From: Longimicrobiales bacterium
Lineage (GTDB): Bacteria; Gemmatimonadota; Gemmatimonadetes; Longimicrobiales; Gaopeijiaceae
Assembly: GCA_958295645.1 (NCBI GenBank)
Contig: OY282361.1
Location: 1,082,501 to 1,146,500, forward strand
DNA: 64,000 bases
Reading direction: 5' to 3'
Shown: positions 23,839-36,001 of the stretch, in pieces
Layout: every line of letters begins with the position of its first letter
How positions within the stretch are numbered: position 1 is the first letter of the stretch
Made by a program: the position numbers and the translations under genes
Notes under the pieces: model-generated
Told to the model about the DNA's origin: nothing
Databases searched by the model: none
What the model saw: only the letters and a program-made list of their open reading frames with translations

Positions 23839-25038
23839 TCACTCACGCGGCCCTCCTCCGCGGAGGCCGTCGCCGTCGTCCGCGCCAGCCGGCGGCGGCG
23901 AACCCACCCCCTCGACAGCCGGCCCCTCGGGCGGAGGCGCCTTGTCCAGCAGGACGGCCACCCACTTCAGGTCTTGCGTGTTCTCGAGCATGATCTTCAC
24001 GATCATCGTGAGCGGCACCGAAAGCAACGCGCCGACAGGTCCCCACAGCCATCCCCAGAAGATCAAGGAAAAGACCACGAACATGGTCGAGAGGCCGAGG
24101 CTGCGCCCCATAAGGATGGGCTCCAGCCAGTTGCCGAGCACCACGTTGACCACGAGGTACCCCAAGCCCACGACCAGCGCCGCCTGCACATCGAATCCGG
24201 TGACGGCGGCGACTTCGAAGTCGAACTGCACCACGGCGAGCGCCAGCGCCGGCAGGGACGCGAGAATCGAGCCGATCGTCGGCACGTAGTTCAGCCCGAA
24301 GGCCACCAGACCCAGCAGAACCGGCGAATCGACCCCCATCATCCACGTCCAAGAGCCCAGCAGGACGCCCGTGGCGAGGCTCACCAGCGTCTTGATCACC
24401 AAGTACCGCTGGACCTCTCGGACGATCTTCTGCATCCGGGCGCCCGACGCGCCTCCCCCGCCGCCGATCACGCGGAGCTTCCGGGGCAGCACCGCGGCCT
24501 CGCCGAGCGCGAAGGCCAGAATCAGGAAGATCAGGAAGGTGGTGGACACGAAGGAAACCGCCCACCGGAACGCCACGCCGGCCCAGGACACGAAGACCCC
24601 GAAGTTGAGCAGCCCCATGACGTCGGCGCGCAGGTCGCCCAGGATCACCCAGCGGCCTTCCATCCGTCCGAGAAGCTCGCTGAGCTGCAACTGGAGCGCC
24701 TCGGCGTAGGCCGGTATTCGGGCTTGAAGCTCCGAGAACTGCTGGGCCGAGAGCAACGTCAGGAGGCCGAAGACGCCGGCCACCACCACGACCGTGGCCA
24801 AGATCGCGACGGGCAGCGGCACCCGCTTGCTCGTCAGCCAAGCGACGATCGGCATGCTGGTGACCGCCAAGAAGGCGCCCACCGCGAACGGAAGCAGCAC
24901 CGGTTGCGTCAGCCGCAGGCCGTAGATCAGGATGACGACGACCGCGAGCGTGAAGAGGAGCCGCAGGCCGGGCGTCTGGTCCAGCCGGTCGAAGACCAAG
25001 CCCCCGCCTCGCGAGGGTCGCTGTTCGGCCGGGCTCAT
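23839..25038 (-). CDS. AI-2E family transporter (permease)
   Basis: 399 residues with about eight hydrophobic segments, of the AI-2E/PerM family. Family segments include the paired N-terminal helices (LRLLFTLAVVVILIYGLRL), a soluble loop near residues 115-165, and the conserved C-terminal half with LLGLVAFGLNYVPTIGSIL and GNWLEPILMGRSLGLS. Members are proposed exporters of AI-2 or ion antiporters; the substrate here is unknown. The tail is Pro/Gly-rich. ATG lies 10 bases after the stop of the plug protein gene, so they may be co-transcribed. Confidence 0.9.
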   Translation of the reverse strand: MSPAEQRPSRGGGLVFDRLDQTPGLRLLFTLAVVVILIYGLRLTQPVLLPFAVGAFLAVTSMPIVAWLTSKRVPLPVAILATVVVVAGVFGLLTLLSAQQFSELQARIPAYAEALQLQLSELLGRMEGRWVILGDLRADVMGLLNFGVFVSWAGVAFRWAVSFVSTTFLIFLILAFALGEAAVLPRKLRVIGGGGGASGARMQKIVREVQRYLVIKTLVSLATGVLLGSWTWMMGVDSPVLLGLVAFGLNYVPTIGSILASLPALALAVVQFDFEVAAVTGFDVQAALVVGLGYLVVNVVLGNWLEPILMGRSLGLSTMFVVFSLIFWGWLWGPVGALLSVPLTMIVKIMLENTQDLKWVAVLLDKAPPPEGPAVEGVGSPPPAGADDGDGLRGGGPRE

Positions 25039-25048
25039 CTCGAGAACG

Positions 25049-25837
25049 TCAGCAGATGATGGGAACCAGCGCGCCCGGACGCGTGGCGGCGCCTTCCACA
25101 TAGGAGATGGTGTACACCCGTATCTGCGCGCACCCCCGGATCACTTCGATCCGATAGGTCTCCGTGGAAGGCAGAGTCGCCAGTTCGCGCACGCCGCCGA
25201 ACGCCGGAGCGTCGTCCACGTAGATGCGGGGCCGCTGCACGATCGCTCCCCGGGTGCGGATGCAGTCCCGCGGGCGGGTGAAGAGCCCCGTCTCCGGCCC
25301 CCTGTCGAAGCAAGAGACGAATTCGAAGCCGGGCTGGCTGTTCAGATAAGAGGCGACGTCGAGGTCCGGCGCGAGCTTGATCTCCGCCTCCGTGAACGTG
25401 CTGGCCATGTACGGCAGCACGGCGATGCGGTCCGCCAAGCGATCGACGTACACCTCGATTCCCTCGAGCAGGACGGGCTTGGGCACAACGGCGACCTCGA
25501 CGTCCTGCCCGGCCTGGATGTCGAGCACCTGCGTCAAGTCCACGTAGCCCAAGCGGGACACCCGGACATGGCTGGGGCCGGGCGGCACGTCGGAGATCGC
25601 AAACCGTCCCTCGTCGTCCGTGACGCCCATGATCGCGGAGCCGTCTCGCCGCCGCGTCTCGGTCAAGACGATCACGGCTCCAGGGACGGGCTCGCCCTGC
25701 CACGTGTCGATCACGCGGCCGCTGAACACGACCGGCGAGGCCGCGGCTTGGCCGGCCGTCTCGCCGGCCAGCGGCGCCAGGGCCGCGAGCGCGAGCGCCG
25801 AGGCCGCAAGAAGCCGAACCAGGGTCTTCGCCGTCAA
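25049..25837 (-). CDS. Exported carboxypeptidase-regulatory-like plus TonB-plug-like protein without barrel
   Basis: 262 residues read from a TTG that overlaps the TGA of the peroxiredoxin gene (TTGA), which immediately gives a clean signal peptide (TLVRLLAASALALAALAPLAG). Residues about 40-125 form a carboxypeptidase-regulatory-like beta-sandwich (FSGRVIDTWQGEPVPGAVI, then DDEGRFAISDVPPG). Residues about 125-262 resemble a TonB plug (LLEGIEVYVDR, IYVDDAPAFGG, YRIEVIRGCAQIRVYT), but the protein ends there with no beta-barrel. Such plug-only proteins are common in Gemmatimonadota-like genomes and have no established function. No ATG is available before the conserved part. Several cysteines (SCFDRG, RPRDC, RGCAQ, final C) suggest disulfides. 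Confidence 0.78.
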   Translation of the reverse strand: MTAKTLVRLLAASALALAALAPLAGETAGQAAASPVVFSGRVIDTWQGEPVPGAVIVLTETRRRDGSAIMGVTDDEGRFAISDVPPGPSHVRVSRLGYVDLTQVLDIQAGQDVEVAVVPKPVLLEGIEVYVDRLADRIAVLPYMASTFTEAEIKLAPDLDVASYLNSQPGFEFVSCFDRGPETGLFTRPRDCIRTRGAIVQRPRIYVDDAPAFGGVRELATLPSTETYRIEVIRGCAQIRVYTISYVEGAATRPGALVPIIC

Positions 25838-26304
25838 AGCGCGCGCACGGCGTCCGCGATCTCGCCGAAGGGCGGCAGCACGCCGGGGTCGTCGCTCGCC
25901 CAGGCGTAGGCGACGCGTCCGTCCCGGTCGATCACGAAGACGGAGCGCTTGGCCACGCCGCGCAGGCCGAAGAAGTCCTCCTGGAGCACCCCGTAGGCGC
26001 GGGCCGCCTCCTTGTTGAAGTCCGAAAGCACGGGAAACTCCACGCCCATCTCTTCGGCCCACTTCTGGTTCGCAAACGGCGAGTCGATGCTGATTCCGAA
26101 GATCGCCGCGCCCAATTCGCCCCACATGTCCCAGCGCTCGGCGACGTGACAGAGTTCCTCGGTGCAGGCGCTGGAGAAGGCCAAGGGCACGAAGAGCAGC
26201 ACGACGGGCAGGCCGCGCCGTTCCGAGAGCGTCACGGGCTTCTCTCCCATGGCCCGCATCAGCGAGAAGTCCGGGGCGGGCTCCCCCACGGCAATCGTGC
26301 TCAT
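25834..26304 (-). CDS. Peroxiredoxin (AhpC/TSA superfamily)
   Basis: 156-residue thiol peroxidase. The peroxidatic Cys47 lies in FVPLAFSSACTEELC, where the family norm is PxxxT/SxxC; a second Cys52 five positions on matches the resolving position of atypical two-Cys BCP/PrxQ enzymes. It opens MSTIAVGEPAPDFSL and ends with the usual SVFVIDRDGRVAYAW. It reduces hydroperoxides in the cytoplasm. The ATG has GGAGAAGGGG directly upstream. The gene is divergent from the DUF1592 cassette and its stop overlaps the next start, so it probably heads a transcript with the plug protein and the AI-2E permease. Confidence 0.93.
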   Translation of the reverse strand: MSTIAVGEPAPDFSLMRAMGEKPVTLSERRGLPVVLLFVPLAFSSACTEELCHVAERWDMWGELGAAIFGISIDSPFANQKWAEEMGVEFPVLSDFNKEAARAYGVLQEDFFGLRGVAKRSVFVIDRDGRVAYAWASDDPGVLPPFGEIADAVRAL

Positions 26305-26549: not shown

Positions 26550-29063
26550 ATGAACAGAACTCTCCTTGCCCTGGCGGCCGCGGGCGGCGTGCTGGGATTG
26601 GGCTTGGCGTTCGAGCAGTCGCCGAAAACGAGCAGGGGCGGCGTGGAGTTCCTCCGCGAGTCCGCGCTGGGCTTGGTTCGCGCGCACAGTTCCACGGCGG
26701 GCGACGCCCGGTTCGCCCCGATGGACGCCGCCGTGTCCGCGAACCCCAACGAAGTCGTGGAGCAGTTCTGCACCCGGTGCCACAACGAGCGGCGCAGGAC
26801 CGGCAATCTCGTGCTGGAGGGCTTCGACGTCGCGAACGCCGCGGAAATGCGTCCGACGATCGAGAAGATGATCCGCAAGCTGCGGGCACGGATGATGCCG
26901 CCCGCGGGCGTTCGACGCCCCGAAGCGGAAGTCGTCGCCGCCACGGCCGCCGTGCTCGAGGCCGAGATGGACCGGATCGCCGCCGAGAGTCCGGATCCGG
27001 GCCGCCGAACCTTCCAGCGGCTCAACCGGGCCGAGTACGCAAGCGCGGTCAAGGATCTGCTGGGCCTGGACGTGGACGTGAGCGCCTTCCTGCCGCTGGA
27101 CACGAAGAGCGCGAACTTCGACAACATCGCCGACGTGCAGATGCCTTCGGCGACGGTCATGGAGGGCTACCTGCGGGCAGCCGGCCAAATCAGCCGTCTC
27201 GCGCTGGGCGACCCCTCCGCCGAACCGGCCTCCCCCATCTACCGGATTCCCCGGGTGGCCTCGCAGAAGGATCGCGCCGAAGGGGCTCCTCCCGGCACGC
27301 GGGGCGGGCTCTCGGTGGTGCACACCTTCCCCGCCGACGGCAAGTACGTCTTCCACATCATGCCGTACGCGGCAGTGGAGGGCGAGGTCTTCGGCCGCAC
27401 GTTCGGCACCGAGCAGATCGAGGTCTCCATCGACGGAAGGCGGGCCGCGCTGCTCGAGATCGACCGGTGGATGTCGGAATCGGAGCCGACCGGGCTCAAC
27501 GTTCGCACCGACTCGATCTACGTGACGGCGGGGCCGAAGCGGGTGTCGGTCGCCTTCGTTCGCCAGTTCGAGGGCGAGGTGGACGACTTGATCCGGCCCA
27601 TCGACCACACGCTGGCGGACGGCCAGATCGGCATTGGCCTCGGCGTCACCACGCAGCAGCACTTGCAGCGGGTCACCATCCTTGGCCCGTTCGACGTGAC
27701 CGGCGTGTCGGCGACCCCGGCCCGCGAGAGGGTCTTCGCCTGCCGCCCGACGTCGCCGGGCGAGGCGCGCCCCTGCGCCCGCGAAATCGTTCACGGCCTC
27801 GCGGCCCAAGCGTACCGGCGGCCCGTGACGGAGGCCGATCTGGAAGGACTGCTGGCGTTCTACGACCAGGGCGCGAAGGCAGGCGGCTTCGAGAGGGGCG
27901 TGCGGACGGCCCTGCAGGCGATTCTGGCCAGCCCCCACTTCCTCTTCCGGCTGGAGCGGCGGCCGGAGGAGCCGGCGCAGGACGGCATCCATCCGGTGAA
28001 CGGGCCGGACTTGGCCTCCAGACTCTCGTTCTTCCTCTGGGGCTCGCCGCCGGACGAGCAGCTCGCCCGGGCGGCAGCGGACGGCGAGCTGGCCGACCCT
28101 GCCAAGCTCGAGGCGCAGGCGCGGCGCATGATCGCGGATCCCAGGTCGCGCGCGCTGGCCAGCCGGTTCGCGGCCCAATGGCTTCGCCTTCAGGACCTCG
28201 ATAAGATCCATCCGGACGCGCTCACCTATCCCTACTTCGACCAGACGCTCGCGAACGCCATGCACCGCGAGACCGAATCGTTCTTCGCGCACATGGTCGC
28301 CGAAGACCGTCCGGTTCACGAGCTGCTCACGGCCCCGTACACGTTCGTGAACGAGCGGCTGGCCCGGCACTACGGCATCAGCGGCGTGACCGGTCCCGCG
28401 CTGCGGAAGGTGTCCTACCCCGAAGGCGGTCGCCGGGGACTCCTGGGGCACGGCAGCATCCTGACGCTCACGTCGCACCCGGACCGCACGTCCCCCGTGT
28501 TGCGCGGAAAGTGGGTCCTCGAAGTTCTGCTGGGCGCTCCACCGCCCCCGCCGCCGCCCGACATCCCGGCCTTCGAAGAGACCGCTGCCGCCGAGGAGGG
28601 CCGGTTTCTCACGGTTCGGGAGCGCATGGAGGAGCACCGCGCAAACCCGCAGTGCACGTCCTGCCACAACGTCATCGACCCGCTCGGCCTCGCGCTCGAG
28701 AACTTCGACGTGACCGGAGCCTGGCGAACGCGCGACGGCGGGAATCGCGTGGACCCGGCGGGCGTGATGTACGACGGAACCGAGCTGGCCAGCGCCGAAG
28801 ACCTTCGCAACGCTCTCATGAGCCTCTCGGAGGTCTTCTACCAGACGTTCGCCGAGAACCTGATGGCCTACGCCTTGGGCCGCCGGGTGGAGTACTACGA
28901 CATGCCGACGATCCGCCGCATCACGCGCGAAGCGGAGACCAACGACTACCGAATGTCGTCCTTCCTCTTGGGGATCGTCGGGAGTCCGCCGTTCCGCACG
29001 ACGCGGGCGGGCTCGTTGGCCGAGGACGACGCGGAGTTCGGCGCGGAGACCGAACGCCACTAA
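26550..29063 (+). CDS. DUF1592-type exported protein with two c-type heme motifs
   Basis: 837 residues; signal anchor MNRTLLALAAAGGVLGLGLAF. An N-terminal heme motif CTRCH is at residues 74-78 and a C-terminal one, CTSCH, at 702-706. Between them lies the planctomycete-type series: DUF1587 (FQRLNRAEYASAVKDLLGL near 155), DUF1595 (HGLAAQAYRRPVTEADLEGL near 415), DUF1592 (DLASRLSFFLWGSPPDEQL) and DUF1588 with the second heme, then a DUF1585-like end. Proteins of this architecture are periplasmic and presumed redox-active, but their substrate is not established. The ATG has GGAAGG six bases upstream. It is the first gene of a rightward cassette of four. Confidence 0.93.
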   Translation: MNRTLLALAAAGGVLGLGLAFEQSPKTSRGGVEFLRESALGLVRAHSSTAGDARFAPMDAAVSANPNEVVEQFCTRCHNERRRTGNLVLEGFDVANAAEMRPTIEKMIRKLRARMMPPAGVRRPEAEVVAATAAVLEAEMDRIAAESPDPGRRTFQRLNRAEYASAVKDLLGLDVDVSAFLPLDTKSANFDNIADVQMPSATVMEGYLRAAGQISRLALGDPSAEPASPIYRIPRVASQKDRAEGAPPGTRGGLSVVHTFPADGKYVFHIMPYAAVEGEVFGRTFGTEQIEVSIDGRRAALLEIDRWMSESEPTGLNVRTDSIYVTAGPKRVSVAFVRQFEGEVDDLIRPIDHTLADGQIGIGLGVTTQQHLQRVTILGPFDVTGVSATPARERVFACRPTSPGEARPCAREIVHGLAAQAYRRPVTEADLEGLLAFYDQGAKAGGFERGVRTALQAILASPHFLFRLERRPEEPAQDGIHPVNGPDLASRLSFFLWGSPPDEQLARAAADGELADPAKLEAQARRMIADPRSRALASRFAAQWLRLQDLDKIHPDALTYPYFDQTLANAMHRETESFFAHMVAEDRPVHELLTAPYTFVNERLARHYGISGVTGPALRKVSYPEGGRRGLLGHGSILTLTSHPDRTSPVLRGKWVLEVLLGAPPPPPPPDIPAFEETAAAEEGRFLTVRERMEEHRANPQCTSCHNVIDPLGLALENFDVTGAWRTRDGGNRVDPAGVMYDGTELASAEDLRNALMSLSEVFYQTFAENLMAYALGRRVEYYDMPTIRRITREAETNDYRMSSFLLGIVGSPPFRTTRAGSLAEDDAEFGAETERH

Positions 29064-29096
29064 ACTGCGCACGAAGGAGCGCGAGGACGCGACTCG

Positions 29097-30485
29097 ATGA
29101 AGATCATCAGCGGAAAACACATCTCCCGGCGCGCCATGCTCAAGGGAACGGGAGCCGCGATCGGCCTTCCATTGCTGGACGCGATGGTGCCCGCGGGCCG
29201 GCTGTGGGCGGCCACGCCCAACGCGAAGGCGGCGGACCGTCCCCGCTTGGTGTGCATCGAGCAGGTGCACGGAGCGGCCGGCTGCAACGACTGGGGCGCA
29301 GGGCAGAACCTGTGGTCGCCGGCGGCCGTGGGCCGCGACTTCGACCTGTCGCCGACGAGCCTCAAGTCCCTGGAACCGTTTCGGGACTACCTCACCATCG
29401 TGAGCGACACCGACGCGCGCATGGCCGACGCGTACGCCCCCAGCGAGATCGGCGGCGACCACTTCCGCACCAGCGCGGTCTTCCTCACCCAGGCGCACCC
29501 GAAGCAGACCGAGGGGTCGGACGTGCGCGTGGGTACCTCGATGGACCAGCTGTACGTGCAGCGGTTCGGCCAGGACACGCCGATCCCGTCGCTCCAGCTC
29601 TCCATCGAGAACGTGGACCAGGCGGGCGGCTGCGCCTACGGATACGCCTGCGTGTACACCGACACCATCAGCTGGGCCTCGCCGAACGAGCCCTTGCCGA
29701 TGATTCGCGACCCCCGGGCGGTCTTCGAGCAGTTGTTCGGCGCCGGCGGGACGCCCGAGCAACGCGCCGAACGCCTCAGCACGGACCGGAGCATCCTGGA
29801 CTGGGTGATGGACGAGATGTCCGCAGTGAGGCGGCAGTTGGATCCGGCGGACGCGCGCAGGTTGGACCAGTACGCGCACAACATTCGCGAGCTGGAACAG
29901 CGAATCCAGAGAATCGAAGCCCAGAACTCGAGCGGCGAAGAGCGCCAGATTCCCGAAGCGCCGGTGGGGGTTCCGGACTCGTTCGAGGAGCACGTGAAGC
30001 TCATGTTCGACTTGCAGGTGCTGGCGTTCCAGTCGGACACCACGAGGGTGTTCTCGCTTAAGCTGGGGCGCGACGCCTCGCCCCGGGTCTATCCGGAGTC
30101 GGGCGTCGACGCGCCGTTCCACGCGGCCTCGCACCATGGCGGGCGCGAGGACCGAGTTCGCAAGTTTGCCAAGATCAACGAGTACCACGTGTCCATGGTC
30201 CCCTACTTGCTGAAGAAGTTGCAGGAGGTGGACGAGGGAGACGGAACTCTGCTCGACAAGACGATGATCGTGTACGGATCTGCCATGGCCGACAGCAACC
30301 TGCACAACCATATGCGTTGCCCGCTGTTCCTCGCCGGCGGCGCGAACGGCGCACTGGAGGGCGGCCACCACGTTCGCGCCCAGCCGGGCACGCCGATGGC
30401 GAACGTGATGCTGAGCCTGTTGCACAAGCTGGGCGCCGACGACATCGAGAAGTTCGGCAACAGCACGGGCCACTTCGCTCTCTAG
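29097..30485 (+). CDS. Tat-exported HXXSHH (DUF1552) protein
   Basis: 462 residues. The Tat signal is HISRRAMLKGTG at residues 8-19, followed by GAAIGLPLLDAMVPAG. The family motif H-A-A-S-H-H is seen at 342-347, followed by GGRED; the C-terminal part has YGSAMADSNLHNH near 395, another histidine cluster. The DUF1552 family is related in layout to DUF1501/sulfatase-like proteins and almost always sits next to DUF1592 genes; its activity is unknown. The Tat signal implies folding, perhaps with a metal, before export. It starts 33 bases after the heme protein gene, strongly suggesting one transcript and a joint periplasmic function. Confidence 0.93.
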   Translation: MKIISGKHISRRAMLKGTGAAIGLPLLDAMVPAGRLWAATPNAKAADRPRLVCIEQVHGAAGCNDWGAGQNLWSPAAVGRDFDLSPTSLKSLEPFRDYLTIVSDTDARMADAYAPSEIGGDHFRTSAVFLTQAHPKQTEGSDVRVGTSMDQLYVQRFGQDTPIPSLQLSIENVDQAGGCAYGYACVYTDTISWASPNEPLPMIRDPRAVFEQLFGAGGTPEQRAERLSTDRSILDWVMDEMSAVRRQLDPADARRLDQYAHNIRELEQRIQRIEAQNSSGEERQIPEAPVGVPDSFEEHVKLMFDLQVLAFQSDTTRVFSLKLGRDASPRVYPESGVDAPFHAASHHGGREDRVRKFAKINEYHVSMVPYLLKKLQEVDEGDGTLLDKTMIVYGSAMADSNLHNHMRCPLFLAGGANGALEGGHHVRAQPGTPMANVMLSLLHKLGADDIEKFGNSTGHFAL

Positions 30486-30539
30486 GCTTTGGACGGCTCG
30501 CCGGAGACCGCGGCCGGTCCTCGACTGGGAGGGGGCTGC

Positions 30540-32420
30540 ATGAGGAGAAGAGGAACGAGGCGCCTGCGCGCGCTTCTGGCGTTGTGTGTTGCCGCGCTGG
30601 CCGCCGGTGCGGCCGGACCGGCCGATTCTCCGGTGGCGGACGCCGCCGAACGCCGGAATCTCGAGGCCGTTCGGGCGTTGCTTCGCGGCGGCTCGGACCC
30701 CAACGCCGCGCAGGCCGACGGCATGACGGCGCTGCACTGGGCCGCGAGCCACGACGACGTCGAGATGGCGACGGCCCTCCTGTACGCGGGCGCGGCCGTG
30801 CACGCGACCACGCGCTTGGGCGGCTATGCGCCGTTGCACTTGGCCAGCCGGGCCGGGCACGCCAAGGTCGCCGCGCTGCTCCTGGACGCCGGAGCCGACC
30901 CCAATCTGTTCACCACGACGGGCGCCACCGCGATGCACTTCGCGGCGGAAGCGGACGCGGCCTCCGTGGTCGAGGCGCTGGCCGCCCGCGGAGGCGACGT
31001 TAACGCGCCCGACGAGTTCGCCGCGCGCACCCCGCTGATGTTCGCGGCCGTGCGAGGCGCCGACGCCGCCGTGCGCGCATTGCTGGCCGCCGGCGCAGAC
31101 CCGGAGCTCGCGACGCGGGTGAAGGACTACGCGGCGCTCGACCAAGCCATGCGGGCCGAGCAGAAGCGGCGCGCTCGCGTTCGGGCCGCCGCCGAAGAAC
31201 CGGAGGAAGAAGAGCAGTCCGGCGCCTCCGCCGCTCAGGCGCCGCCACCCGTCGCGCAACCCCAGCCGACCGCGCCGCAGCAACCAGGGAACGCGGCCAG
31301 GCCGGCGAGTGCGGCGACGCCCTCGACGCCGACCGACCCTGAAGCGGCCGCGCCGGACTCCGCCCAGGCGCCTGCCCCGCCCCCGGTCAAGGCCCTGACC
31401 TCCGCGCAGCAAATCGGCAAGCAGGGCGGGTTCGCGGCGCTCCATTTCGCGGCGCGCGAAGGGCGCCGAAGCACAGCTGCGGCCCTAGCCGACGCTGGAG
31501 CGAACATCGACCGGCCCACGGCCGGCGACCAGTCCACCCCCCTGCTCGTCGCCGTCGTCAACGGCAACTACGACTTGGCGCGCGATCTGCTGGCGCGAGG
31601 CGCGGATCCCAACTTGGTGAGCGACGACGGCGCGGCACCGCTCTTCGCCACCCTGAACATCGAATGGTCGCTCCGCACTTGGTATCCCCAGCCTCAGGCG
31701 TTCCGGCAGCAGGAGACCAGCTACTTGGAGCTCATGGAGTTGTTGTTGAACGCGGGCGCCGACCCCAACCAGCGGACGACGACGCACATCTGGTACGCCG
31801 CCTACAACGCGGGCCGCATGGGAGTGGACTTCACGGGCGCGACGCCGTTTTGGCGGGCCGCCTACGCCGTGGACGTCGAGGCCATGCGGCTGCTGGTGGA
31901 ACACGGGGCCGACCCCGGCATCTGGACGGTCAAATTGCCCAGCCGGCGGCGGTACGTGGATCCGAACTTCCCCGACACGCGGCCGGACGAGTCGCCCGCG
32001 GATCCGTCGGGTCTGCTCCCGGTTCCGGTCGGGGGCCCTGCGGTGCACGCGCTGCACGCGGCCTCGGGCGTGGGATTTGGAACGTCGCGGGTGGCCCAGC
32101 AGCACCGCGCCGTGCCCGACGGCTGGTTGCCGGCCGTGCGCTACTTGATCGACGAACTGGGGGTGGATCCCAACCTGCGAGACAAGGACGGCTACAACGC
32201 CATTCACCACGCGGCGGCCCGGGGCGACAACGCGACCATCTTGTACTTGGTGTCCAGAGGCGCCGACGTGCACGCCGTGAGCCGCCGGGGCCAGACCACG
32301 GCCGACTTGGCCAACAGCCCCGAGCAAAGGGCCCAGCCGCACCCGGCCACCGTGGCCTTGTTGGAGAAGCTGGGCTCGCGGAACAACCACCAGTGCAGGT
32401 CGTGCGGGGGAAGCCGGTAG
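30540..32420 (+). CDS. Exported ankyrin-repeat protein
   Basis: 626 residues from the ATG with GGGAGGGGG upstream. A basic signal (MRRRGTRRLRALLALCVAALA) precedes about five ankyrin repeats at 35-190 (for example NAAQADGMTALHWAASHDD, GYAPLHLASRAGHAKVAALL). A low-complexity Ala/Pro/Gln/Glu linker follows (about 200-280), then a second ankyrin block at 285-600 (GGFAALHFAAREGR; NATILYLVSRGADVHAVSRR). The C-terminus has CRSCGG. Ankyrin arrays bind proteins; with its export signal this one probably scaffolds the adjacent heme and HXXSHH proteins in the periplasm. The same three-gene grouping recurs in acidobacterial and gammaproteobacterial genomes, which supports a shared role. There are 54 bases between it and the DUF1552 gene. 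Confidence 0.9.
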   Translation: MRRRGTRRLRALLALCVAALAAGAAGPADSPVADAAERRNLEAVRALLRGGSDPNAAQADGMTALHWAASHDDVEMATALLYAGAAVHATTRLGGYAPLHLASRAGHAKVAALLLDAGADPNLFTTTGATAMHFAAEADAASVVEALAARGGDVNAPDEFAARTPLMFAAVRGADAAVRALLAAGADPELATRVKDYAALDQAMRAEQKRRARVRAAAEEPEEEEQSGASAAQAPPPVAQPQPTAPQQPGNAARPASAATPSTPTDPEAAAPDSAQAPAPPPVKALTSAQQIGKQGGFAALHFAAREGRRSTAAALADAGANIDRPTAGDQSTPLLVAVVNGNYDLARDLLARGADPNLVSDDGAAPLFATLNIEWSLRTWYPQPQAFRQQETSYLELMELLLNAGADPNQRTTTHIWYAAYNAGRMGVDFTGATPFWRAAYAVDVEAMRLLVEHGADPGIWTVKLPSRRRYVDPNFPDTRPDESPADPSGLLPVPVGGPAVHALHAASGVGFGTSRVAQQHRAVPDGWLPAVRYLIDELGVDPNLRDKDGYNAIHHAAARGDNATILYLVSRGADVHAVSRRGQTTADLANSPEQRAQPHPATVALLEKLGSRNNHQCRSCGGSR

Positions 32421-32422
32421 CG

Positions 32423-32998
32423 GTGCGGCCCGGCCCGGCGGTGGCGGTGCGACTCCTGCGCCCAACTGCGGTTGCGGCCCAACTCGCCGTCTTGGGCGTC
32501 GCGCTGGGGGTCTTCTCCGCCCCGGCGGCCGCGCACGCGCAGGACACCGAGTGGAACCGCTACACCTTGGACGGACTCGCGGGCGTGCACATCCGCGCCG
32601 AGACGAACGACGGATGCCAAGGCGCCGGCCTGTCCGCCGAGTCCGTGCGGGCGGAAGCCGAGGCGATCCTGGCCGCGGCGGCCGTCCCGCTGCTCGCGGA
32701 CGACGAGATGCTGGCCAGCCCCGGTCTGCCCGAGTTGCGCGTCACCTTCGAGTGCGGCGGAGGAGTCTCGGGAGTCGTCGGCTACGCGGTCTCGGTTCGC
32801 GTTCAGCAGGCCACGCAGATGATCCGCGACACGCAGATCACGCTGTCCGAGGCGGTGACCTGGTACGCGACGGCCGTGGGCGTGGCCGAAGCGGCGGCAA
32901 CCGCGGAGGCGATGAACGCCGCGCTCCGGGCCAAGCTGGCCGAGTTCGCGGAAGCCTTTGAGGCGGCGAACGCGGAGGAGGAAGGCGAAGGCGGCTAG
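32423..32998 (+). CDS. Small exported protein of unknown function
   Basis: About 191 residues, begun at GTG 32423, two bases after the ankyrin stop and nine bases after a GGGGGAAG site; GTG at 32441 or 32447 would also leave the signal peptide intact. The signal (QLAVLGVALGVFSAPAAAHA) is followed by about 150 residues with two cysteines (DGCQGAG near 68, FECGGG near 108), beta-rich in the middle and ending in a long Ala/Glu helix (TWYATAVGVAEAAATAEAM onward). I recognise no family. It probably belongs to the heme/HXXSHH/ankyrin transcript. Its TAG overlaps the TAG of the DUF5916 gene on the other strand within CTAG. Confidence 0.65.
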   Translation: MRPGPAVAVRLLRPTAVAAQLAVLGVALGVFSAPAAAHAQDTEWNRYTLDGLAGVHIRAETNDGCQGAGLSAESVRAEAEAILAAAAVPLLADDEMLASPGLPELRVTFECGGGVSGVVGYAVSVRVQQATQMIRDTQITLSEAVTWYATAVGVAEAAATAEAMNAALRAKLAEFAEAFEAANAEEEGEGG

Positions 32999-35271
32999 AA
33001 GAGAGCGATCTGCCGCGTGAACTTGACGAAGACCGACCTTCCCACGGGGCCGGACATGTCGCCGATCCCCTGAACGTCGTTGTAGACCACGAAGAGCCCG
33101 GTGCCCGCGGTGGTCAGCCATCCGAAGCGAACGTTGGCCGACCACTGGTCGACTTGGTCGGAGTACTGCACAAGCGACTGCAGGTAGATGCGCGGCGTGA
33201 AGAAGTAGCCGAGGTTCACGCCTGCCAGCGTCGCCGTGAAGTCGCCCTGCGGAAGCCGCACGTCGTTGTAGGCCACTCGGAACGTGGCGCTGGACCGCTC
33301 GCCCCGCCGAATGGTCACGTCCGCGCTGGTGGACTTGCGGTTCCCCGACAGGAATCTCCCCCAGTTGAAGCGCGAGTTGAAGGACAGCGTCCGAGACCGG
33401 TCGGTGAAGAACACGACCTGCGATTCCCATCCCGCGTACGTGTCCGCCGGGACCACGACGCCAGTGCCCGGAATCTCGAACGGCTCGTACAAGCCCTCGG
33501 TCACGTAGTTGGCGCCGCTGTGCAGTTCCATTCCCGAGTGCCATTCCCAGTGGCTGTCGATGTGCCACCGCGACGACTCGTTGAACCCCCGGGCGACGCC
33601 GTTTCGCTCCGTGCGGTAGGTGAAGTAGGAGACGTGCGGCCGGATCTCGCGGAAGAACCGCTTCGGGCGGCTGTACCACATCCCGAACAGCTGGTAGTAG
33701 CGGTGCCCTCTGCGCGGCAGGAAGCCGACTTCCGGGTTGAAGTTCTCGCCGATCCCCCGCACCGTCGCGTTGGCCCGCCAGTTCCTGCTCACCCATCCGG
33801 CGGTCGCGTCCCAGGCCAAGTCGGCGCCGTCCAACCCCGGCGTGTCGGTGCGGGCCACGAACGACGTCAGCGTGAACTGGTCGCCGATCCCCAGGCGTCC
33901 GTCCACCGCGTAGGTCCGGTTGTAGTCCCCGTCCACGTCGCTGCCCCGGTCGACGAAGATGCCCCCGACACGGGATCGGTTCGGCAGTTCCTTGGCCAAG
34001 CGCGCAACCGAGTAATGGCTCTCCGGCCCGCCGCCCGAGGGCGCGCCGGTTCGGATGTGGAGCAGACCCAAGTTGAGGCCCGCCGCACGCCCCGACAGCC
34101 GCCCGCCAGCCTTGATCGGCACGGGTTCTCCGTCCGATATGCCGATGCGCCGGCTGAAGAACAGGTCCGCGCCGCCCGCCCCGACGGTGAAGAAGCCGGC
34201 GTTCTCCAGGAAGAACGGGCGCTTCTCCGGGAACAACAGCGAGAATCGCGTCAGATTGACCTGCTGGTCGTCGACTTCGACCTGCGCGAAGTCGGTGTTG
34301 GCCGTCACGTCCAAGGTCAGTCCCTGCGTGACCTGCAGCTTCGCCTCGCCCCCGAACTCGGCGTCCCGCTCGAAGGAGGTCTGCGCGTCGTTCTGATAGT
34401 CGCGAACCGTGGAGCCGAGGACGTACGGCGTAATCGTCGCCGCCCGGCGGAACGGCGGCGTCACCCCTGCCAACTGGCCCGCGAAGTCCAGGCGGTAGAG
34501 CCCGAACTCGCGCGGCACGGCGGACCAGAAGTCCTCTTCGTTGAGACGCCGGATGCGGCGCGAGACGTTGAAGCCCCAGGCGTCCGTCTCGGAGCCGTAC
34601 CGCAACGTGCTGAATGGTATGCGGAACTCGGCGTACCAGCCCTGGTCGTCCTGGGAGGCGGCCACCGTCCAGCTGCCGTCCCAGTTCTTGTTGAAGCCGC
34701 CGCCCGCGCCCGCCTGAAAGCGCCGTCGCGTGTTGCCCCCGCCACCGAGGAAGAAGCCGCCGCCGCTTCCCTGCGCCGCCACCTGCCCGTCGTATTCGAT
34801 GCCCGCAGGCGTGGTGCCGAACACGAATCCGTTCTGCTGGTCGTTGAAGGTGTCGAAGACCATGAGGACGGCGTCGGCGTCGGTGACTTCGAAGTCCCGG
34901 ATCGACTCCCCGGATACGATGGCGCCGGGTTGCGAGTCGTAGGCCCAGACCGCCACGTAGACGGCGTCCTGGTCGAAGAGGATGCGCAGCTCGGTCGGCT
35001 CCGAAGCGGGCTGGCCGTCGTCGGGCTCGCGCTGGACGAAGTCCGACAGCGGTGGAGCCTCCTGCCAAGCCGCTTCGCCGGGCACGCCGTCGATGACGGG
35101 AGGCGTGCTTGTCCAGACGGCGACGGCCGTGCCGGGTTCGGGCTCGGCGGGCGGGCCGGCGCCGTTGGACGGCGGCGCGTCCTGGGCCTGGATCGAGGTG
35201 GCGGACGCCGACAGGGCGACGGCCGCGAGGAGCGGGACACGAAAGAGTGCGGGAGAAGGCTCCCGGTTCAT
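32995..35271 (-). CDS. DUF5916 outer-membrane protein with N-terminal CBM9-like domain
   Basis: 758 residues. The signal peptide is RVPLLAAVALSASATSIQAQ. Residues about 45-235 form a carbohydrate-binding-module-9-like domain (PPVIDGVPGEAAWQEAPPL; RILFDQDAVYVAVWAYD), and the rest is the DUF5916 region, predicted to be an outer-membrane beta-barrel (RRIGISDGEPVPIKAGGRL; VNLTRFSLLFPEKRPFFLEN). Proteins of this kind are numerous in Gemmatimonadota and Bacteroidota; their ligands are unknown. The ATG was chosen because it opens the signal peptide and has AAAGG upstream; the longer frame has no signal. It meets the preceding rightward gene tail to tail. Confidence 0.9.
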   Translation of the reverse strand: MNREPSPALFRVPLLAAVALSASATSIQAQDAPPSNGAGPPAEPEPGTAVAVWTSTPPVIDGVPGEAAWQEAPPLSDFVQREPDDGQPASEPTELRILFDQDAVYVAVWAYDSQPGAIVSGESIRDFEVTDADAVLMVFDTFNDQQNGFVFGTTPAGIEYDGQVAAQGSGGGFFLGGGGNTRRRFQAGAGGGFNKNWDGSWTVAASQDDQGWYAEFRIPFSTLRYGSETDAWGFNVSRRIRRLNEEDFWSAVPREFGLYRLDFAGQLAGVTPPFRRAATITPYVLGSTVRDYQNDAQTSFERDAEFGGEAKLQVTQGLTLDVTANTDFAQVEVDDQQVNLTRFSLLFPEKRPFFLENAGFFTVGAGGADLFFSRRIGISDGEPVPIKAGGRLSGRAAGLNLGLLHIRTGAPSGGGPESHYSVARLAKELPNRSRVGGIFVDRGSDVDGDYNRTYAVDGRLGIGDQFTLTSFVARTDTPGLDGADLAWDATAGWVSRNWRANATVRGIGENFNPEVGFLPRRGHRYYQLFGMWYSRPKRFFREIRPHVSYFTYRTERNGVARGFNESSRWHIDSHWEWHSGMELHSGANYVTEGLYEPFEIPGTGVVVPADTYAGWESQVVFFTDRSRTLSFNSRFNWGRFLSGNRKSTSADVTIRRGERSSATFRVAYNDVRLPQGDFTATLAGVNLGYFFTPRIYLQSLVQYSDQVDQWSANVRFGWLTTAGTGLFVVYNDVQGIGDMSGPVGRSVFVKFTRQIALF

Positions 35272-35323
35272 GGACGTTTCGCCTTTGGGGGTTCTGGCCG
35301 TTCGCGAGGCATCCCTCAAATGT

Positions 35324-36001
35324 TCACTCTCGGCGACCTGTGCGCGAGTCGCTCGGAGGAGGGGAGCCGTCCGTGGACGGGTCGCGAGCGTGGTCGTGGT
35401 CGCGCCTGCCCTGGTGGAACACGACGTGCAGGAGCGTGCCGGCCACGAATGCCTGGTAGAGGTGCACGCCCGGGCCCTCGCCAGCAACGCCGAACAACTC
35501 CGGGCCGGCCGCATACCCCGCCACGGTCGCGACGCAGATCGCCGCGGTCCCGAGACCGACGGCGACGGCGCCGTGGCGGGGTTGCAGCAGCCACCAGATC
35601 ACCGAGCCCACGAGGATGCGATGCATCGTCGTCGCCCAGACAAAGGCCGCGCCGGGTCCGGCGCCCGCCGAGGGCGCGAAGGCCGCCCCTTCGAGCAAGG
35701 CGTGAAGGACCATACCGGACATGCCCGCCAAGATGGCCACGTCGTCGGCGCGAGCGGCCCGCGCACGAAAGACGCGCTCGACCGCCGTGACCACGAGCAG
35801 TCCCAGGACGACGGCCACCACGGGCAACAGGCGGCCTTCCCGCCAGGCGTCGGGCAGCACCAGCCACGCCACCAAGACGGGAACGGCGATGTACGTGAAG
35901 CCGTCCACGGGACGCGTCAGCCGAGGGCGTCCGTGCAACCACGCGTACAGCAGGACGCCGGCCACCGGCGCGGCCGTCGCCGCCGCCAAGCTCCATGGCA
36001 C
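35324..36001 (-). CDS. ZIP-like membrane protein, possible metal permease
   Basis: 225 residues with about seven hydrophobic helices from a GTG start. MVLHALLEGAAF near residue 100 resembles the ZIP helix-4 motif (H-x3-E-G), and TTMHRILVGSVIWW near 125 lines up with ZIP helix 5, where the second metal-site His sits; the helix-5 Glu is not seen. A His/Asp-rich tail (HQGRRDHDHARDPS) is consistent with metal binding. I infer a divalent-metal permease distantly related to ZIP, or a family derived from it. The context fits: a TonB receptor cluster with metal-like features lies upstream in the same direction. The ribosome site is weak and TTG starts a few codons later are possible. Confidence 0.6.
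   Translation of the reverse strand: MPWSLAAATAAPVAGVLLYAWLHGRPRLTRPVDGFTYIAVPVLVAWLVLPDAWREGRLLPVVAVVLGLLVVTAVERVFRARAARADDVAILAGMSGMVLHALLEGAAFAPSAGAGPGAAFVWATTMHRILVGSVIWWLLQPRHGAVAVGLGTAAICVATVAGYAAGPELFGVAGEGPGVHLYQAFVAGTLLHVVFHQGRRDHDHARDPSTDGSPPPSDSRTGRRE

Follow-up and report, generated by a model that had tools for sequence, protein, structure and literature searches.

An exported 191-residue protein as a lineage-specific companion of the DUF1592–DUF1552–ankyrin gene grouping in Gemmatimonadota

Does a short gene without a known family, placed directly behind three recurrently grouped genes for exported proteins, belong to that group? The question is raised by a locus in a 64,000-nucleotide stretch of DNA (hereafter the window) from a Longimicrobiales bacterium (contig OY282361.1), whose single-contig genome of 2.886 Mb is 95.7% complete. 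Here, genes for a DUF1592-type protein, an HXXSHH/DUF1552 protein and an exported ankyrin-repeat protein (the trio) are followed by a gene for a 191-residue protein, P191. In Gemmatimonadota, one subtype of this grouping has P191 as its fourth, lineage-specific component, a conclusion that follows from its linkage to the trio, from the single clade formed by the HXXSHH proteins linked to it, and from the paralogues and sister cassettes that are free of it. The grouping itself is already known but uncharacterised, and P191 is its new, lineage-specific member. Because the four genes stay together across many related bacteria, the small fourth protein probably represents a genuine new part of a system that is widespread.

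The linkage was examined in 395 genomes of the phylum. A sequence search with P191 gave matches in 57 genomes, 51 of them strong and within the family of the window and 6 weak and elsewhere, and a profile search gave 53, namely the same 51 and two distant ones. A separate scan of named genomes yielded 49 P191 loci, on which the neighbourhood counts are based; they come from metagenome-assembled genomes (MAGs) labelled Gemmatimonadetes, Gemmatimonadota, Longimicrobiales, Gemmatimonadales and BD2-11, and four (L110–L113) are labelled Gammaproteobacteria. The cassettes of these four are nearly identical to Gemmatimonadota ones, as would be seen with mislabelled MAGs, where the label may be the depositor's, or with transfer. 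The ankyrin gene lies directly upstream of P191 in 49/49 loci, and the HXXSHH and DUF1592 genes lie upstream of the ankyrin gene in 46 of them, the other three (L084, L086, L123) reaching contig ends. The survey of DUF1552 neighbourhoods suggested in an earlier note on this DNA thus finds P191 at other DUF1592/DUF1552 loci, nearly always with the full trio.

Among the 121 genomes of the family there is a gap in HXXSHH identity, with 56 genomes having a copy of at least 74% and the next copies having at most 71%. P191 is present in 56/56 of the genomes on the upper side of this gap; it lies on the same contig and strand, 1797–2097 nt downstream, in 47, and on another contig in 3, while the remaining 6, which were outside the first sample, were all P191-positive in a follow-up search (5 on the same contig). 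The idea of the earlier note that the fourth gene may be a new component is thereby supported, with the restriction to one subtype. As for the other 14 genomes of the follow-up, 13 have no P191 and one, 64% complete, has it; a further genome (G109) has a complete P191 cassette, and its HXXSHH protein, in which many residues are undetermined, comes out at 62% identity. In a tree of 68 rows, built by a quick method and with long outgroup branches, the 25 P191-linked HXXSHH proteins form one clade with an SH-aLRT (Shimodaira–Hasegawa-like approximate likelihood ratio test) value of 100. A chance arrangement of the four genes is excluded because their order is conserved in other genomes. It is also conceivable that P191 has been inherited beside the trio without working with it, as it occurs in one clade only and a single gain followed by vertical descent would yield strong co-occurrence; however, order, strand and spacing are kept in 47/47 same-contig cases, the arrangement holds at P191 identities down to about 40% though flanking genes change, and the searches of the 395 genomes gave no equally strong P191 relative away from the cassette but only a few remote homologues, and we consider such passive inheritance distinctly unlikely. 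In the remote relatives from other families (L048–L051), no trio is seen in the stretches read; they suggest that P191 was recruited from a larger, unplaced family of exported proteins.

P191 is missing from the other HXXSHH subtypes examined and is therefore a component of a subtype rather than a general one. The trio without P191 was seen in 19/19 P191-negative loci sampled first, and a codirectional ankyrin gene in 36 of the 41 P191-negative HXXSHH copies read, which confirms that the first three genes are recurrent, as had been claimed before. The remaining five comprise two copies at contig ends, one (L170) with the ankyrin gene upstream on the opposite strand, and two (L162, L163) with neither an ankyrin nor a DUF1592 gene. 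In the second cassette of the window's own genome (L033, at about 866–873 kb), the ankyrin gene is the last one, and a presumably LepA-like gene comes next. Genomes of genus g5 carry more copies, up to 13 HXXSHH proteins at E ≤ 1e-150 (e.g., in G224) against two here. The sister rows of the P191 clade (L164, L176) have no P191, and an exported protein of the creatininase family is encoded nearby instead, codirectional with the ankyrin gene in L164 and on the opposite strand in L176. Such creatininase-family proteins occur near HXXSHH cassettes in 19 loci (e.g., L104, L105, L134, L136, L146, L164 and L176); the creatininase was rejected as a fifth part, as it lies on either side of the cassette, is absent from the window, and the three of the own genome lie elsewhere. 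Metallo-beta-lactamase-fold proteins (13 loci) and HpcH/HpaI-aldolase-like proteins (11 loci) are also found near HXXSHH cassettes, and these recurrent neighbours, the creatininases included, may hint at the substrate class. Another protein found near the cassettes, at L136:3936-5468 and in 6 other loci, begins with a cytochrome c-like stretch at its N-terminus and may be a relative of the copper type II monooxygenases.

Outside the phylum, the search covered plasmids and gave 15 records with DUF1552. A plasmid of Novosphingobium sp. KACC 22771 (L152) carries the DUF1592–HXXSHH–ankyrin trio, and Sphingobium herbicidovorans and Sphingobium sp. TomTYG46 carry the order DUF1592–DUF1552–cytochrome c'–cytochrome b561 with no ankyrin gene. 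A cytochrome b561 relative is close to DUF1552 in 12/12 Sphingobium plasmid records, the full order having been read in 2 of the 12, and is also present in Novosphingobium RL4; the Sphingobium records are near copies and therefore represent few independent events. The company of cytochrome c' and b561 in these distant alphaproteobacterial relatives suggests that electrons are exchanged with the respiratory chain.

The first two proteins of the cassette carry motifs that bear on such an exchange. In the DUF1592 protein, PSD3, PSD5, PSD4, PSCyt3 and PSD2 are above the Pfam cut-off, the DUF1587, 1595, 1592, 1588 and 1585 domains all being so at E values of 4.7e-19 to 3.8e-48. CxxCH motifs lie at residues 74 and 702, and two of them are present in 39/39 DUF1592 orthologues of P191 cassettes (those with upstream room); judging by these motifs, it is probably a two-heme c-type protein. 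A profile search of the PDB gave one chance-level match to a designed filament (E 0.064). It has been reported that CjX183, a cytochrome domain of Cbp2D, reduces bacterial lytic polysaccharide monooxygenases (LPMOs), according to the excerpts of PMC8981238 consulted, and the cassette could feed electrons to such enzymes in the way proposed for Cbp2D. However, PF03067 (AA10) had 0 matches in the genome, other LPMO families and copper oxidases not having been searched for, and the DUF1592 protein showed neither a carbohydrate-binding nor a YceI domain in the Pfam scan. The role of an LPMO electron donor is thus highly improbable and was dropped, being largely refuted for AA10 here by the lack of AA10 in a genome that is 95.7% complete.

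The HXXSHH protein matches PF07586 (E 7.9e-88), with the motif in the form HAASHH at residue 342 and a twin-arginine translocation (Tat)-type SRRxMLK motif at the N-terminus. No sequence relative was found in the PDB at E ≤ 1. Its model is weak, with a mean pLDDT (predicted local distance difference test) of 58.8, and in it the VIA neighbours reach Z values of 12.4–10.9, the best being a sulfatase; all 50 listed rows are sulfatases, phosphodiesterases/pyrophosphatases, phosphonate/phosphoethanolamine enzymes or related transferases of the same superfamily. The protein probably has a fold of the alkaline-phosphatase/sulfatase type, an assignment that is tentative because the pLDDT is so low. 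Among 20 aligned divergent HXXSHH sequences, D150, H342 and H403 never vary, H122 and H346 hardly do, and residue 148 is either Ser or Thr; these conserved His, Asp and Ser/Thr residues would be candidates for the two-metal site and nucleophile of that superfamily.

For the ankyrin protein, ATG 30540 is a likelier start than TTG 30489, as the purine-rich GGGAGGGGGC lies directly upstream of the ATG and the resulting N-terminus is signal-peptide-like. NCBIfam matches to Dot/Icm effectors are far under the model cut-offs and reflect only ankyrin repeats, and this identity was rejected. At its C-terminus, a few residues from the stop, the protein carries a motif, N[NS]HxCx[ST]C, that is found in 50/50 P191 cassettes, namely the window and the 49 loci (46 in a first pass and 4 more with NSH). 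This CxxC tail is absent from the earlier note and is new here. The comparison covered the window, L033, L083–L131 and L133–L176: N[NS]..C..C is kept in 26/26 readable tails of P191-negative cassettes with an HXXSHH identity of at least 60%, the His not always being retained, and in 0/8 readable P191-negative cassettes with an identity of at most 44%. The tail follows HXXSHH identity beyond the P191 cassettes and therefore marks a subtype wider than that of P191.

P191 may start at GTG 32423 or at the in-frame GTG codons 32402, 32441 and 32447, and the mature protein probably begins in the conserved AQ|DT region at about 32540. The earlier description of a fourth product with two Cys and no known family holds: P191 has no Pfam match, 32 members scanned against Pfam gave at best E 0.014 to unrelated families, and both Cys, C26 and C72 in the numbering of the mature alignment, are unchanged in 32/32 rows. 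NCBIfam gave only weak unrelated matches, and the single hit of a PDB profile search (E 0.012), an unrelated enzyme, was rejected. An AlphaFold model of mature P191 made from the 32 sequences (mean pLDDT 82.9, predicted TM-score 0.79) has an alpha/beta sheet, a long hairpin and a C-terminal helix. A hairpin with the sequence MIRDTQITL.EAVTW is conserved. Its best VIA neighbours are CsgG (Z 10.2, 119 residues aligned, root-mean-square deviation 3.8) and PelC (Z 10.1, 127, 3.7), followed by TraT, the TolB N-domain, LptE and PqiC in a listed Z range of 10.2–7.2; Foldseek gave PelC a probability of 1.00 but an E value of 3.7e-3. The model thus predicts for P191 an alpha/beta fold like that of PelC, CsgG, LptE and TolB-N, all of them envelope proteins. 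As CsgG, PelC and TraT are the best fold matches, P191 could serve in transport as part of a ring or pore, in the manner of PelC or CsgG, and the cassette would then move a substrate or a polymer through the outer envelope. However, there is no lipobox cysteine at the mature start, the conserved cleavage region AQ|DT having no Cys, and the Pfam scan revealed neither a beta-barrel nor a secretin partner among the cassette proteins. LptE, TolB and PqiC have the same fold but are not known to form such rings, and the fold alone is therefore no proof of a ring or pore; this transport role is improbable.

Taken at a tentative strength somewhat short of even chances, P191 belongs to a periplasmic redox complex, either as a fourth, lineage-specific subunit or as an accessory protein dedicated to it. 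The roles proposed in the earlier note, with hemes for electron transfer, a metal site and a scaffold, are consistent with the motifs and predicted folds. The HXXSHH protein is Tat-exported and would therefore be folded, and possibly loaded with a cofactor, in the cytoplasm; in the periplasm, it would bind or convert a small substrate. The two-heme DUF1592 protein would carry electrons between the HXXSHH site and the respiratory chain, an exchange suggested by the CxxCH motifs and by the Sphingobium gene arrangement. The ankyrin protein would act as a scaffold for the parts and present its tail as a flexible dithiol or metal-binding group, and P191, by analogy with its fold relatives, may be a small partner-binding adaptor that anchors the complex either to the ankyrin protein or to a partner in the envelope. 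A more elaborate version, in which the ankyrin CxxC is a swinging redox arm that moves electrons or metal between the DUF1592 and HXXSHH proteins and P191, with its two Cys, is the docking or disulfide partner of the arm, is a long shot.

Several results weigh against a redox complex with P191 as a part. Most HXXSHH cassettes are P191-free, including the second copy of the own genome, and the HXXSHH proteins of L162 and L163, at about 70% identity, lack both a DUF1592 and an ankyrin gene in the stretch that was read. The Sphingobium loci, besides being near copies, have a DUF1552 protein that is only about 25% identical. Neither the weak HXXSHH model nor that of P191 has a Foldseek match at E ≤ 1e-3, and the Z values of P191 are only modestly above the 7–8 that the tool states to be typical.

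Alternatively, the ankyrin protein and P191 could be assembly or heme-handling helpers of the DUF1592/HXXSHH pair. Going by the title of a work cited in PMC3534063, the periplasmic AnkB of Pseudomonas aeruginosa is needed for full activity of the catalase KatB, and it is likewise an exported ankyrin protein tied to a heme protein, although the partner here is a DUF1592 cytochrome and not a catalase. In the cassette, too, the exported ankyrin protein adjoins a heme protein, its CxxC tail could handle apocytochrome thiols or metal, and an AhpC/TSA gene lies upstream in 14/49 P191 loci. However, Pfam found no catalase among the seven proteins scanned (the cassette and its nearest flanks), and the Sphingobium DUF1592–DUF1552 pairs have no ankyrin gene, from which it follows that maturation of the pair does not generally depend on the ankyrin protein. 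Such a helper function is unlikely, though it deserves some weight beside the subunit or accessory role preferred here.

As shown in Table 1, the four open reading frames were confirmed on the forward strand by the gene calls and Pfam, which bears out the earlier claim of four rightward genes, and the cassette proteins carry export signals computed from sequence. The AhpC/TSA gene diverges upstream and the DUF5916 gene converges on and overlaps P191, and the cassette is therefore a complete one-strand run of four genes. A site scan gave 0 promoter-like sites and 2 terminator-like sites, fewer than in shuffles (mean 3.6). The AI-2E-type transporter and AhpC/TSA genes also lie upstream of the cassette in some P191 loci; the flanking genes are not constant among these loci, the AhpC gene included, and were rejected as cassette parts.

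Table 1. Genes of the cassette and its flanks in the window.
Feature	Position	Strand	Basis and remarks
DUF1592-type protein (PSD3-PSD5-PSD4-PSCyt3-PSD2)	26550..29063	+	Pfam; two CxxCH; hydrophobic N-terminus
HXXSHH/DUF1552 protein	29097..30485	+	Pfam; Tat-type N-terminus; model with predicted alkaline-phosphatase/sulfatase superfamily fold
Exported ankyrin-repeat protein	30540..32420	+	Pfam; start codon comparison; N[NS]HxCx[ST]C tail
P191, 191-residue exported protein	32423..32998	+	No Pfam family; two conserved Cys; predicted PelC/CsgG/LptE/TolB-N-like fold
AhpC/TSA gene	25834-26304	-	Divergent, upstream of cassette
DUF5916 gene	32995-35514	-	Convergent, downstream; 4-base overlap with P191
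AI-2E-type transporter gene	23839-25101	-	Upstream of cassette

DUF1552 is known from many environmental bacteria with no assigned function, and its genes occur in 146 of the 395 sampled genomes. New handles are provided by the strictly linked fourth protein, the conserved CxxC tail of the ankyrin protein, the two predicted folds and the link of distant relatives to cytochrome c' and b561, and the cassette offers a defined four-protein complex for reconstitution with residues for mutation.

In the open-licence literature, as far as its accessible parts go, no description was found of P191 or of an ankyrin association with DUF1592/DUF1552. The available text of PMC5615132 describes PSCyt genes as having conserved neighbours and a possible action on periplasmic sugars, their function not being established; in Planctomycetes and Verrucomicrobia, a PSCyt3/DUF1592 gene stands with a conserved gene family of unknown function, resembling the present locus in that a DUF1592-type cytochrome gene has a constant neighbour. 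The loci there are described with carbohydrate-binding domains and sulfatase neighbours and no ankyrin gene is named in that text, whereas here the ankyrin gene and P191 complete the unit. Cbp2D of Cellvibrio japonicus, a proposed electron link to LPMOs, shares the DUF1587 domain, there with c-type cytochrome domains, but according to the same excerpts of PMC8981238 it also has CBM2, FN3 and YceI-like domains, and the genome analysed here has no AA10 LPMO. The alpha/beta fold predicted for P191 resembles that of PelC, CsgG, LptE, the TolB N-domain and PqiC, and P191 differs from them in having no lipobox cysteine, no detectable sequence family, another gene context and two conserved Cys. In other Gemmatimonadota and in Novosphingobium L152 the trio is P191-free, and the Novosphingobium ankyrin protein has no CxxC tail, but the three genes, their order and their direction are identical to those of the window.

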